Notes: generated by a model from the letters alone, not told the origin. DNA of 33,871 nt from Clostridiales bacterium DTU083 (GCA_001512915.1 LFTC01000030.1:13084-46954); one strand, 5' to 3'. Counted from the stretch's first letter, positions 12,951 to 30,913 are shown. Numbers and translations: made by a program.

Positions 12951-12979
12951 TTGACAATGCAGATTGAATTGGCTATAAT
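12951..12979 (+). promoter_or_regulatory. Consensus promoter of tRNA-Leu
   Basis: TTGACA (12951-12956), a 17-base spacer and TATAAT (12974-12979): a perfect sigma-A consensus, 14 bases before the tRNA. Confidence 0.9.
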
Positions 12980-12993
12980 AAGTTTGTCGATTG

Positions 12994-13080
12994 GCGGGAA
13001 TGGCGGAATTGGCAGACGCGCTAGATTCAGGTTCTAGTGGTCGCAAGACTGTGCAGGTTCAAATCCTGTTTCCCGCACCA
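12994..13080 (+). tRNA. tRNA-Leu, anticodon CAG
   Basis: 87 bases with CCA encoded. The acceptor arms (12994-13000 and 13070-13076) pair perfectly, with discriminator A at 13077. The anticodon stem CTAGA/TCTAG encloses TTCAGGT, giving anticodon CAG. The long variable arm (TGGTCGCAAGACT region) and GGTTCAAATCC T-arm are typical of class II leucine tRNAs. Confidence 0.95.
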
Positions 13081-15894: not shown

Positions 15895-15923
15895 TTGACA
15901 AATAGTTTTGGTCTGCGTATAAT
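15895..15923 (+). promoter_or_regulatory. Consensus promoter of the T-box operon
   Basis: TTGACA (15895-15900), a 17-base spacer and TATAAT (15918-15923): a perfect consensus driving the T-box leader. Confidence 0.9.
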
Positions 15924-15931
15924 ACTAGTCA

Positions 15932-16232
15932 ATATAGTACATTACAGTGATAAAGGATATTAAATGCGATGACCGGGAAGTAGTAGCGGAAGCTTGCATT
16001 CCTTACAGAGAGCCTTTGGTTGGTGAGATAAAGGCAGTGAATAGTTCCGTGAATTCATCCCGAGAGCTGCACACTGAACGGCATTTTGCCCAGTAGGCTG
16101 TGCCGGAATCCGGCCGTTAATTTCCGGAGGGGTAATTATTGTTACCCGCTGAGGTTGTTTTTATAAACAACGAAGACAAGGTGGTACCGCGAACCAAAAA
16201 TTCGCCCCTGTTATACAGGCGGCGATTTTTTA
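15932..16232 (+). ncRNA. T-box leader, apparent specifier UUC (Phe)
   Basis: A tRNA-sensing riboswitch controlling the ABC importer. Stem I can be followed: CGGGA (15974-15978) pairs TCCCG (16058-16062) and CGGAA (15987-15991) pairs TTCCG (16045-16049), leaving a specifier loop with AGTAGTAG on the 5' side and TGAATTCA (16050-16057) on the 3' side. After the usual GAA the codon is TTC (16054-16056), followed by A. The AG bulge (CAGAGAG, 16006-16012) and the GGTGAGA apical loop are present. The T-box proper, AAGGTGGTACCGCG, lies at about 16178-16191; its UGGU should pair with ACCA, meaning discriminator A. The terminator is the stem TCGCC-CCTG/CAGG-GGCGA with a T run (16202-16231). UUC is read by tRNA-Phe. 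Confidence 0.9.
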
Positions 16233-27364: not shown

Positions 27365-27393
27365 TTGACAGTATTTGTTTTTAATTTTATAAT
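27365..27393 (+). promoter_or_regulatory. Consensus promoter of the DUF1538/PII-like operon
   Basis: TTGACA (27365-27370), a 17-base spacer and TATAAT (27388-27393): a perfect consensus about 85 bases before the DUF1538 gene. Confidence 0.85.
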
Positions 27394-27478
27394 TATTGAA
27401 AATGATTGTTGTAAATTCAATCGAACGGGATTATTGTCAAGTCTGCTGCAAGCTCATAGGTAAAATTGAGGTGATGGT

Positions 27479-28975
27479 TTGAATGAACTAATCAGTAAAC
27501 TGAAGGAAGTGCTGGCTTCAGTGCTGCCGGTTACTTTTATAGTATTAGCGCTTCATTTCACGATCAGTCCTTTGGAACCGAACATGCTGTATGCATTTCT
27601 TATAGGCTCTTTATTAGTAATAATAGGACTGACAATTTTTCTGTTTGGTATAGATCAGGGCATAGAGCCCGTCGGGCATAATATAGGAAATACCATGGCT
27701 CAATCCGGCAGTTTTGCAGCTATTACAACTGTCTGCTTAATTTTGGGCTTTTTTATTTCATATGCTGAACCAGATCTGCACATACTTGCAAACCAGGTAG
27801 GTAATGTTACCTCAGGCCGTTTTGACAAAACCTTGATGGTAGTAGTGGTTTCCATTGGCATTGGCGTAATGATGACCTTGGGCATGCTGCGAATCCTCAA
27901 AGAAATCCGGATCAAATATGTGTTTACTGCAGCATACGGCTTGATTTTTATTCTTTCCATTTTTTCTTCACCGGATTTTTTGGCAATTGCATTTGATGCA
28001 TCCGGAGCAACCACAGGGGCAATTACAGTGCCTTTTATGCTGGCTCTGGCAGCCGGAATTTCCGCCATGAAGAAAGACAGCAAAATGGGTGAAGCTGATA
28101 ACTTCGGACTTATAGGTATTTCTTCTACAGGCGCTATACTGGGAGTGTTGAGCGCAGGTCTTTTGCTTGGTATAAACAAAATGGAAGGAACACTGCCTGA
28201 GAATACTTATTTTGGATCAAGTCTGCTTGATATTTACGGTTCAATATTTCCAGGCATTGTTAAGGATTCTTTAGTTTCACTGCTTCCTATAATAATTGTA
28301 TATATCTTGTTTCAAATTTTTTCCTTTAAACATAAGAGGAGAAGGGTAATCGACATCTCTCGCGGGTTGATCATCACTTTTGTCGGGCTGGTAGTATTTA
28401 TGTTAGGTGTCTACGGCGGATTTATGGCGGTGGGCACGCATACTGGTATCAGGTTGGCTTCGATGGATTCCAATTTACCAGTATTGATTGTCTCTTTACT
28501 TCTTGGTCTGACAACAGTATTGGCTGAACCGGCTGTGCATGTATTAACTCACCAGGTAGAAGATGTTACAGGCGGATCCGTAAAAAGACGTTTGGTTTTA
28601 TTATTTCTGTCTGTAGCAGTGGGACTATCGATATTTATGTCTGCATTGCGGATACTAATTCCTGATATTAAACTATGGATGTTTTTGCTGCCCGGCTTTG
28701 GTATTTCAGTAATTCTTGGCTACTTTGTGCCGGATTTGTTTGTAGGCATGGCCTTTGATGCCGGGGGTGTGGCATCCGGCCCAATGACAGCCACCTTTTC
28801 TCTGGCGTTCGTTCAGGGAATAGCTGCACAGATTCCTACGGCTGATTTGGTGTCAGATGGTTTTGGCATGATTGCCATTGTAGCTATGATGCCTGTTATA
28901 GCGCTGGAACTGTTGGGCGCCTTATATCAGGCAAAGACACGAAGAGCAGCCAAAGCAATATTAAAGAGAGAATAA
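27479..28975 (+). CDS. Duplicated DUF1538 membrane protein (putative transporter)
   Basis: A 498-residue protein with about 12-14 hydrophobic segments. It is an internal duplication: AEPDLHILANQVGNVTSG (96-113) recurs as AEPAVHVLTHQVEDVTGG (349-366), and FDASGATTGAITVPF (172-186) as FDAGGVASGPMTATF (426-440), so the repeats are about 253 residues apart. I recognise this as DUF1538. The repeated acidic, His, Asn/Gln and small residues in or near membrane segments suggest a cation or small-ion pathway (inference). The start is a TTG at 27479 with GAGGTGAT just upstream; the nearby ATG at 27483 reads into a stop. The PII-like gene begins 11 bases after its stop, so it is probably the regulated partner. 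Confidence 0.82.
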   Translation: MNELISKLKEVLASVLPVTFIVLALHFTISPLEPNMLYAFLIGSLLVIIGLTIFLFGIDQGIEPVGHNIGNTMAQSGSFAAITTVCLILGFFISYAEPDLHILANQVGNVTSGRFDKTLMVVVVSIGIGVMMTLGMLRILKEIRIKYVFTAAYGLIFILSIFSSPDFLAIAFDASGATTGAITVPFMLALAAGISAMKKDSKMGEADNFGLIGISSTGAILGVLSAGLLLGINKMEGTLPENTYFGSSLLDIYGSIFPGIVKDSLVSLLPIIIVYILFQIFSFKHKRRRVIDISRGLIITFVGLVVFMLGVYGGFMAVGTHTGIRLASMDSNLPVLIVSLLLGLTTVLAEPAVHVLTHQVEDVTGGSVKRRLVLLFLSVAVGLSIFMSALRILIPDIKLWMFLLPGFGISVILGYFVPDLFVGMAFDAGGVASGPMTATFSLAFVQGIAAQIPTADLVSDGFGMIAIVAMMPVIALELLGALYQAKTRRAAKAILKRE

Positions 28976-28986
28976 CGGAGGTAACT

Positions 28987-29670
28987 ATGGAAAATCAAAT
29001 ACTGACATTAATCCTTAATGAGAATCAATGCCATAAATGTATCCGCTATGCAAGAGAAAAGGGTATTAAGGGCGTTATGGTTACAATAGGAAGGGGAACG
29101 GTAGACAGCGCCGTTCTGAACTTGCTGGGCATAAAGAGCCAAAAAAAGGAGATAGTACAATTTTTGCTGGAAAAAGAAAAAGCACCGGAGCTGCTGGAGT
29201 ACTTTACCAGTAAACTACAATTACATGAACCTGGCCATGGAATAGCATTTACTACTCCGGTTATTGCCATAGTCGGGCTGGGGCATCATGAAATGGAACA
29301 CATAGAGTCAGACAGTCACTTAGTTCAAAGTATGGAGGAAAAAGGTATGTTTCAAAAACTGACAGTGATAGTGGACCGAGGTATGGCAGAAGATGTCATG
29401 GATATAGCACGCAGGGCAGGAGTGCGGGGTGGTACAATCCTTCATGGGCGCGGTGCAGGTGCGGAGATGGCTACTAAATTATTCGGCATCGAGATAGAGC
29501 CTGAAAAAGAGCTGGTTTTAATTCTGGTTCCAAGTGAATTAATAAAGAAAGTGATAGAGGATCTGACCACTGAACTTCAGCTTGATGAACCTGGCAAAGG
29601 CATCTTGTTTGTGGAACCAATTCTGGAAACCCGCGGCCTGTTTGAGATGCACAACAAAAAAAGCAAATAG
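28987..29670 (+). CDS. Tandem PII-like signalling protein
   Basis: A 227-residue cytoplasmic protein made of two PII (GlnB-like) ferredoxin-fold units: about 1-97 and 122-218. Each has the beta-alpha-beta start (LTLILNENQCHKCIRYAREKG; KLTVIVDRGMAEDVMDIARRAG, quoted in part), a glycine-rich T-loop region (TIGRGTVDSAV; GGTILHGRGAGAEM), and a B-loop-like turn (LHEPGHGIAFTTPV; LDEPGKGILFVEPI). There is no uridylylated Tyr as in GlnB, so control by nucleotide or metabolite binding is likelier. Ordinary PII trimers control transporters such as AmtB; here the partner should be the DUF1538 protein encoded just before. GGAGGT precedes the ATG. The ligand is unknown. Confidence 0.82.
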   Translation: MENQILTLILNENQCHKCIRYAREKGIKGVMVTIGRGTVDSAVLNLLGIKSQKKEIVQFLLEKEKAPELLEYFTSKLQLHEPGHGIAFTTPVIAIVGLGHHEMEHIESDSHLVQSMEEKGMFQKLTVIVDRGMAEDVMDIARRAGVRGGTILHGRGAGAEMATKLFGIEIEPEKELVLILVPSELIKKVIEDLTTELQLDEPGKGILFVEPILETRGLFEMHNKKSK

Positions 29671-29839: not shown

Positions 29840-29868
29840 TTGACAACCAGAATTCAGCCTGCTATACT
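29840..29868 (+). promoter_or_regulatory. Downstream promoter of the opp operon
   Basis: TTGACA (29840-29845), a 17-base spacer and TATACT (29863-29868), about 116 bases before oppB. Confidence 0.75.
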
Positions 29869-29983: not shown

Positions 29984-30913
29984 ATGAGTACAAAATTAAT
30001 GTCTTACATTTTAAAAAGGCTTGTCTTAGCTTTATTGACGGTTTGGGTAGTTGTAACTATCACTTTTTTTGTTATGCATGCTGTGCCGGGCGGTCCTTTC
30101 CTGGCAGAGAAAGCTATCTCTGAAGCTGTTACCAAGCAGCTGGAGGCAAAGTACGGCATGGACAAGCCGCTGATGACACAATATTTAACTTACCTGAGAG
30201 ATGTTGGAACCAGGTTTGATTTCGGTCCTTCATTAAAACAACGCGGACGTGAAGTGGCTGATATTATTTATGACGGGATGAAAACATCAGTGAAATTAGG
30301 TCTTATAGCTGCTTCAATTGCATTGTTTTTCGGCATTATATTAGGCACAATTGCTGCAATTCGCAGAAATAAGATTATAGATAAAGTAATTATGGTAATT
30401 ACAACAGCCTTTGTATCTATGCCATCATTTATAATGGGTTCATTATTATTGGTATTGTTTGCTTTAAAGCTTGAATTATTCCCGGCCAATGGTTCAACTA
30501 CAGCCGGCCTTGTTTTGCCCATAATAACATTAGCTCTCTATCCTTTGGCTTATATAACACGCTTGGTGCGCTCTTCCATGCTTGATGTTCTGGGGCAGGA
30601 TTATATACGCACTGCGCATGCAAAGGGCGTTTCACGCACAAAAATAATTTTTGGCCACGCATTGAAAAATTCCTTAATTCCGGTAATTACTTATGTCGGC
30701 CCTATGCTTGCTTATATCGTAACCGGTTCTCTTGTAGTGGAGAAAATTTTTGCAGTGCCAGGAATCGGCCGGGCTTTTGTGAACAGCATTACAGGGCGTG
30801 ATTATCCGCTTATTATGGGCACGACCATTGTTCTTTCAGTACTAATTGTAGTTATGAATCTTGTCAGCGATATTCTGTATAAAGTCGTTGATCCGCGAAT
30901 TACTTTGGAGTAA
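29984..30913 (+). CDS. oppB: Oligopeptide/dipeptide ABC importer permease B
   Basis: A 309-residue membrane protein with six hydrophobic segments. The N-terminus YILKRLVLALLTVWVVVTITFF is typical of OppB/DppB, with VPGGPF after it; the coupling loop with RSSMLDVLGQDYIRTAHAKG (about 197-216) and VVEKIFAVPGIGRAFVNSI near residue 250 are hallmark stretches. It pairs with OppC to form the peptide channel. GGAAGGG precedes the ATG. Dipeptide, oligopeptide or nickel-type use cannot be told apart from the permease alone. No oppA precedes it. Confidence 0.92.
   Translation: MSTKLMSYILKRLVLALLTVWVVVTITFFVMHAVPGGPFLAEKAISEAVTKQLEAKYGMDKPLMTQYLTYLRDVGTRFDFGPSLKQRGREVADIIYDGMKTSVKLGLIAASIALFFGIILGTIAAIRRNKIIDKVIMVITTAFVSMPSFIMGSLLLVLFALKLELFPANGSTTAGLVLPIITLALYPLAYITRLVRSSMLDVLGQDYIRTAHAKGVSRTKIIFGHALKNSLIPVITYVGPMLAYIVTGSLVVEKIFAVPGIGRAFVNSITGRDYPLIMGTTIVLSVLIVVMNLVSDILYKVVDPRITLE

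Follow-up and report, generated by a model that had tools for sequence, protein, structure and literature searches.

Conserved Pairing of DUF1538 Membrane Proteins, a Cation/H+ Antiporter Family, With Dedicated PII-Like Proteins in Bacteria

Introduction

Genes for DUF1538 membrane proteins, which form a cation/H+ antiporter family, are accompanied in bacterial genomes by a gene for a dedicated PII-like protein, and this pairing is real, strongly conserved and a variant of the known pairing of PII proteins with transporters. The case described here lies in a stretch of 33,871 nucleotides from Clostridiales bacterium DTU083 (GCA_001512915.1 LFTC01000030.1:13084-46954), referred to as the window, from the first letter of which all positions are counted. 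Few signalling proteins are as widespread as those of the PII type. PII trimers gate the transporters AmtB and SbtA directly: they dock on the cytosolic face, and the T-loop then obstructs the transporter or locks it (PMC10710835, PMC8352866). Among transporters, those documented as PII targets handle ammonium, nitrate, urea, or bicarbonate, and a review describes the targets as trimeric transporters, with cation/H+ antiporters not among them (PMC10710835). We consider it probable that the two proteins of the window are a UmpAB-type cation/H+ antiporter and a dedicated ligand-responsive PII-like regulator that docks on the antiporter and gates it. The pairing thus suggests a widespread and apparently unstudied switch for bacterial ion antiporters; no paper describing it was found in the literature searched, which mostly did not extend to subscription journals.

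The Two-Gene Locus

The locus consists of a promoter and two genes:

27365–27393, + strand: sigma-70-type promoter TTGACA-N17-TATAAT, perfect (12/12)
27479–28975, + strand: DUF1538 tandem membrane protein of the fused UmpA-UmpB type, 498 amino acids, TTG start
28987–29670, + strand: tandem PII-like protein, 227 amino acids, assigned by PF00543, AlphaFold2 and Foldseek

A reading made from the sequence alone had described a consensus promoter ahead of the pair and a spacing of 11 bases between the genes, and both descriptions hold. The promoter matches the consensus in all 12 positions and lies 85 bases 5' of the DUF1538 start codon; three perfect TTGACA-17-TATAAT sites occur in the whole window against 0.01 expected from shuffled sequences. 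The remaining two precede a tRNA (12994–13077; region 12951–13077) and a T-box leader (15960–16212; region 15895–16212). The TTG start codon is preceded by GAGGTGAT, and the 11 bases between the reading frames (28976–28986) contain a GGAGG Shine-Dalgarno sequence. The next gene, starting at 29984 and encoding an oligopeptide-type ABC permease according to Pfam, comes with a separate promoter-like site at 29840; with this site behind and the perfect promoter in front, the DUF1538 and PII genes look like their own two-gene transcription unit. Riboswitch control of the pair was considered and rejected, since no Rfam family was found upstream of it in the window, nor at 28 further loci.

The DUF1538 Membrane Protein

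Both proteins were proposed by the sequence-only reading to be internally duplicated, with repeats about 253 residues apart in the membrane protein. BLASTP aligns the DUF1538 halves with 31% identity over 210 amino acids (E 4e-26) at an offset of exactly 253, and the PII units with 34% identity over 96 amino acids (E 5e-17). The profile PF07556/DUF1538 matches the membrane protein twice (E 3.4e-123; 409 bits versus a cut-off of 22.6), and both halves evolve equally fast, with a mean pairwise identity of 69% each in the window's group:

27494–28183, + strand: DUF1538 half 1, UmpA-like, with the conserved motifs AEPDL (E97) and AFDASG (D173) and a charge pattern pointing to N-in/C-out
28253–28948, + strand: DUF1538 half 2, UmpB-like, with the conserved motifs AEPAV (E350) and AFDAGG (D427) and a charge pattern pointing to N-out/C-in

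The substrate had been called unknown, which is too cautious with regard to its class: for the DUF1538 pair UmpA and UmpB from Halomonas zhaodongensis, Na+(Li+,K+)/H+ antiport has been measured, with an optimum at pH 9 and with activity only as a heterodimer, and umpA and umpB jointly, neither of them singly, gave salt and alkali tolerance to Escherichia coli KNabc (PMC5484666). KNabc is a laboratory strain that lacks its main Na+/H+ antiporters. Moreover, DUF1538 is a listed feature in the machine-learning prediction of optimal growth pH (PMC13255231). Like UmpAB, the window protein has two homologous 7-TM units that both belong to PF07556, and its best NCBIfam matches are UmpA (E 4e-48) and UmpB (E 1e-38). 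Unlike UmpAB, its halves are fused in one chain and a PII-like gene follows, whereas UmpAB was described with no mention of PII or P-II (PMC5484666). The scores also lie far under the NCBIfam equivalog cut-offs (NF041627/NF041628; 163.9 versus 490 and 132.8 versus 500 bits), and we therefore regard the window protein as a member of the family rather than an established orthologue of UmpAB. This counts against the preferred reading to the extent that the substrate could differ; by family membership, the window protein would be an antiporter.

Across relatives the acidic residues E97, D173, E350, and D427 and the arginines R138 and R391 are invariant or nearly so, which makes them candidate ion-coupling residues. 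The AlphaFold2 model of the protein (pLDDT 86.6, pTM 0.87) found no convincing fold match in the PDB with Foldseek, the top probability being 0.21. A known fold was rejected on this ground together with an empty sequence search, and for the same reason neither an elevator nor any other fold is claimed, despite the helix-break pattern.

The orientation of the halves was assessed by the positive-inside rule, from the number of Lys+Arg in each loop of about 95 fused proteins and 42–44 split pairs. Half 1 carries on average 0.02 Lys+Arg in loop 1-2, 3.0 in loop 4-5, and 2.8 in loop 6-7, with 0.26 in the C-tail where half 1 is a separate protein. In half 2 the pattern is reversed, with means of 3.7 in loop 1-2, 1.3 in loop 4-5, 0.14 in loop 6-7, and 4.1 in the C-tail. 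These patterns indicate an antiparallel arrangement of 7+7 transmembrane helices, N-in/C-out in half 1 and N-out/C-in in half 2, in which one chain would hold two homologous but unlike membrane units. Such an arrangement fits the finding that UmpA and UmpB are both required. Single DUF1538 genes encode proteins with balanced loop charges (n = 3, too few for a claim), which suggests, within these three cases, that they could be dual-topology homodimers.

The Tandem PII-Like Protein

The second gene encodes two units of the PII type:

28987–29322, + strand: PII unit 1, evolving fast, 46% identical on average in pairwise comparisons
29341–29652, + strand: PII unit 2, conserved, 63% identical on average in pairwise comparisons
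29446–29511, + strand: T-loop region of unit 2, GRGAGAEMATKLFGIEIEPEKE, about five residues shorter than in E. coli GlnB and without Tyr

The P-II profile PF00543 exceeds its cut-off in the second half only (42.5 versus 25 bits), and it matches all 52 relatives of the protein examined (52/52). The profile searches proposed earlier thus return DUF1538 twice and P-II once above the cut-offs. A match of unit 1 to PF03479 (PCC) was under the cut-off and was set aside. The AlphaFold2 model (pLDDT 79.2) displays the order beta-alpha-beta-beta-alpha-beta twice, as two ferredoxin-like units, and Foldseek returns the PII-type proteins CPII, GlnK, SbtB, and PotN, with E values of 1e-4 to CPII, GlnK, and SbtB and per-domain TM-scores of approximately 0.6–0.77; a PII fold, as had been supposed, is therefore predicted for both units.

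Because unit 1 diverges faster, the two units of the tandem are unequal. In the window's group the identity of unit 2 exceeds that of unit 1 in 99.8% of pairs. Throughout the family the T-loop region carries the motif GRGTGIHE..KLLGIxIEPEKE, and the B-loop is Gly-rich, KPGxGIAF; unit 2 of the window keeps this signature as HGRGxG...KLFGxEIEPEKE and LDEPGKGILF, and unit 1 has lost much of it.

Residues on which canonical PII proteins depend are only partly recognisable. The Tyr51 of the T-loop is absent from the T-loop regions of both units and from the relatives' consensus, so that the earlier remark on the missing modified Tyr stands. Compared with the canonical B-loop TGxxGDGK, the glycines are kept (EPGxGI) and Asp and Lys are replaced. 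Gln39, a 2-oxoglutarate site of GlnB, aligns with Gly in the PII-like units, and the correspondence of the Lys in EPEKE to Lys58 of GlnB is ambiguous from sequence; the residues for ATP and 2-oxoglutarate are thus recognisable in part. With Tyr absent, Gln39 changed to Gly, and the B-loop Lys replaced, the product is best classed as a PII-like protein rather than as GlnB or GlnK, and sensing would rest on ligand binding. Adenine nucleotides are our best guess for the ligand, by analogy with CPII and SbtB; that nucleotide binding by the PII units is a guess counts against the preferred reading.

CPII from Thiomonas intermedia, which binds ADP/AMP and bicarbonate, is the top structural PII match to the window model (E 1.5e-4), and differs in its low identity (approximately 24%), its single unit and its other partner. 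The presence of CPII and SbtB, both linked to bicarbonate, among the nearest structural neighbours could suggest that DUF1538 moves another substrate such as ammonium, bicarbonate or an organic ion, and that the PII protein couples its uptake to nitrogen or carbon status. The distance of the window protein from the UmpA/UmpB equivalogs would agree with this, as would the observation that, where transporters are known to have a PII partner, it mostly serves nitrogen or carbon regulation (PMC10710835). We nevertheless regard such a role as unlikely, since the sole measured activity of a DUF1538 system is cation/H+ antiport (PMC5484666), GlnB Gln39 aligns with Gly, the modified Tyr is missing, and no nitrogen-assimilation genes recur beside the module in the neighbourhoods compared.

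Another candidate ligand, c-di-AMP, is less likely than adenine nucleotides, and that the protein is a c-di-AMP receptor adjusting a K+/Na+ antiporter seems to us very unlikely. The module occurs also in Alphaproteobacteria, in which c-di-AMP is, to our knowledge, not usual. Sequence and fold searches give GlnK, CPII, SbtB, and PotN and not PstA; PstA/DarA is absent from the structural and profile matches, and the B-loop of the window units is short, whereas PstA has a long B-loop and a short T-loop (PMC6516651). No scanned module has a c-di-AMP riboswitch upstream, and one has it downstream: in L134 (5491–5663; 102 bits) it lies directly 3' of a D+D+P+P module and is followed by an asparagine synthase-like gene (asnB). 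What speaks for such a receptor is a diadenylate cyclase domain in the window's genome, the control of potassium homeostasis by c-di-AMP in Gram-positive bacteria (PMC7857571), and the precedent of PstA/DarA as a PII-like c-di-AMP receptor (PMC4316997).

Co-Inheritance of DUF1538 and PII Genes

Searching public genomes with the DUF1538 protein of the window yielded 62 related loci, and a PII-like gene follows DUF1538 in essentially all of those with sufficient sequence. Cultured bacteria that carry the module include Caproiciproducens galactitolivorans (L046) and Thermoclostridium caenicola (L054). Co-occurrence was then counted within Bacillota, in 398 evenly drawn genomes, using for the tandem PII a profile cut-off of E < 1e-20 that separates the genomes cleanly. 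About one third of the genomes (135/398, spanning 99 genera) contain DUF1538. Both families are present in 133 genomes, the PII type only in 2, DUF1538 only in 2, and neither in 261, p-values on this co-occurrence being inflated by shared ancestry. One of the two genomes with DUF1538 only (G064) holds a degraded pseudogene with six stops (G064:C1:2161174-2161630), and the PII gene is gone too; in the other (G289) the match runs to the contig end. A genome of the same genus as the former (G101) keeps an intact DUF1538-PII pair, so that both genes were lost together in G064. Among modules of this sample uncut by contig ends, PII adjoins DUF1538 in 72 of 74, mostly with a gap of less than 50 bases or an overlap. 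The neighbourhood is thus conserved, and together with the predicted PII fold this bears out the proposal that a protein of a transporter family has a PII-type partner dedicated to it.

A genome of the window's own family (G012) encodes a natural DUF1538-DUF1538-PII fusion of 618 amino acids (L018 2093–3946, on G012:C143), with a separate tandem PII gene just 5' of the fusion and overlapping its start. By the charge pattern, the junction of this fusion would fall in the cytosol, as needed. Outside Bacillota, umpA-umpB-PII is found on alphaproteobacterial plasmids of Methylocystis rosea and Chelativorans, in which the PII is single and annotated merely as 'P-II family nitrogen regulator'. No viral homologues were confirmed in IMG/VR; the 'phage' matches are unannotated contigs from faeces or wastewater and are likely bacterial DNA, since the two inspected carry the same DUF1538-PII module.

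The window's genome, which is 89% complete, contains a second DUF1538-PII pair on contig C51, 37% identical in DUF1538. At this completeness, neither a PII protein over the cut-off besides the two DUF1538 partners nor an ammonium channel (AmtB) was found in it, and PII-type signalling in this organism therefore appears to be devoted to DUF1538. In one genome, the two paralogous modules, of the window type and of the C51 type, are arranged head to head (L088 2064–5733).

So close an association, even as a fusion, could also be expected if the PII-like protein were an assembly factor or a constitutive, structural part of the antiporter and not a gate under ligand control, and the loss of much of the family motif from unit 1 would agree with this. 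We give this possibility little credence, as E. coli given only UmpA and UmpB showed antiport (PMC5484666), which means that PII is not strictly needed there, and as unit 2 retains the conserved T-loop motif and the Gly-rich B-loop. Counting against the preferred reading of a gated antiporter, the tandem PII is retained unlinked from DUF1538 in one genus (G213, G298). In both genomes the unlinked gene lies divergent beside that of a 455 aa membrane protein (L236 4392–6897, L237 712–3381).

Other Partners of the Same PII Type

In four Bacillota genomes (G346, G393, G328, and G260) a PII of the same type lies beside a transporter of 442–445 amino acids with no adjacent DUF1538, and two of the four are without any DUF1538. 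A single PII directly precedes the ArsB/MamN/CitMHS-type transporter at these loci:

L217 4658–6592
L218 4890–6746
L219 4994–6858
L220 3328–5205

Three of the transporters were scanned and belong to CitMHS/ArsB/NhaB-type families, with MamN as the top NCBIfam match. In a further genome a single PII of the same subfamily is located directly behind the NAD(P) transhydrogenase genes pntA/pntB (L221 423–5050, on G108:C13). Its PntB has extra repeats of the NADP-binding domain, with three PNTB stretches. The position of PII beside an ArsB/MamN-like transporter and behind genes of a proton-translocating transhydrogenase suggests, as a lead and not as proof, that this PII subfamily is specialised for membrane proteins linked to ions or protons.

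A Proposed Model for Gating and Its Implications

In favour of the antiporter with a dedicated regulator stand the co-occurrence, the adjacency, the natural fusion, the alphaproteobacterial plasmids, and the second pair in the same genome, which has no further PII over the cut-off and no AmtB. The measured antiport of UmpAB, the listing of DUF1538 for growth-pH prediction, the ArsB/MamN-like transporter beside the same PII type, and the direct gating of AmtB and SbtA by PII trimers also speak for it. The antiporter would consist of two homologous 7-TM halves, antiparallel in the membrane and fused, that exchange Na+ (Li+, K+) for H+; the heterodimer requirement of UmpAB fits two such unlike halves. 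The tandem PII-like protein would bind a small molecule of the cytosol, for which an adenine nucleotide, the type of ligand found with SbtB and CPII, is the likeliest candidate. On binding or release of this ligand, the T-loop region of the protein would dock on the cytosolic face of the antiporter and keep the antiporter in a single state. Sensing and docking are probably the task of unit 2, and unit 1 may be a diverged companion that completes the oligomer. Ligand-controlled docking and gating of DUF1538 is proposed by analogy with GlnK-AmtB and SbtB-SbtA. GlnK-AmtB likewise combines a transporter gene and an adjoining PII gene, with a PII fold and a T-loop region, and differs in that DUF1538 is not of the ammonium channel family, the PII is tandem and has no uridylylated Tyr, and the genome is without AmtB. 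With SbtB-SbtA the pair shares the dedicated PII-like partner, SbtB being among the Foldseek matches of the window PII model, and we count it as a further likeness that SbtA is a Na+-linked secondary transporter of inverted repeats. The transporter fold differs (no Foldseek match of the DUF1538 model above probability 0.21), and SbtB, in contrast to the tandem PII here, forms a trimer of single units and has an AMP/cAMP switch. It counts against the model that the known PII-gated transporters are trimers (PMC10710835) and that a trimeric state of DUF1538 is conjectural.

Taken in its widest form, the proposal would be a PII-gated monovalent-cation/H+ antiporter spread across phyla, with an unequal PII ring of tandem or two-gene origin on an antiparallel 7+7-helix fold absent from the PDB; we put this forward tentatively, as possible rather than probable. 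If true, it would break the current rule by which all transporters under PII control are trimeric, and cation and pH homeostasis would join the processes under PII control. Should every DUF1538 antiporter come with a PII-like regulator of its own, the balance of sodium, potassium, and pH would also fall to the PII superfamily, and UmpAB, the only characterised DUF1538 pair, would deserve re-examination for a missing regulator.

Matched Duplications and Stoichiometry

From the duplication of both partners the sequence-only reading had derived a built-in stoichiometry, in which each of the two DUF1538 halves would have one PII unit as its counterpart. This part did not survive comparison across modules, and we consider such a correspondence distinctly unlikely. 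DUF1538 fusion and PII copy number were mapped on a tree of 91 modules. In the tree set, fused DUF1538 occurs with tandem PII in 49 modules and with two PII genes in 1, whereas split DUF1538 pairs have one PII in 20, a tandem PII in 15, and two PII genes in 9. Two PII domains thus accompany DUF1538 in 50/50 fused modules against 24/44 split ones, as one-to-one matching would have it. The fusion arose on the tree only once, against at least four changes in PII number, and a single event gives no independent evidence, so that a correlation of fusion with PII duplication is unsupported; the 20 split modules with a single PII also argue against it. Furthermore, the DUF1538 halves look antiparallel by charge and would turn unlike faces to the cytosol, leaving no two equivalent cytosolic sites for PII, and PII units 1 and 2 evolve unequally and are not equivalent. 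The single-PII, two-gene, and tandem versions form a natural series on how PII stoichiometry can change.

For one-to-one matching speak four loci with a single DUF1538 and a single PII gene (L173 3503–4300, L187 3962–4663, L198 3996–4775, and L222 3758–4444) and L189, in which a single+single arrangement lies beside a double+double one. The single DUF1538 gene of L187 (G204) is the only DUF1538 of its genome.
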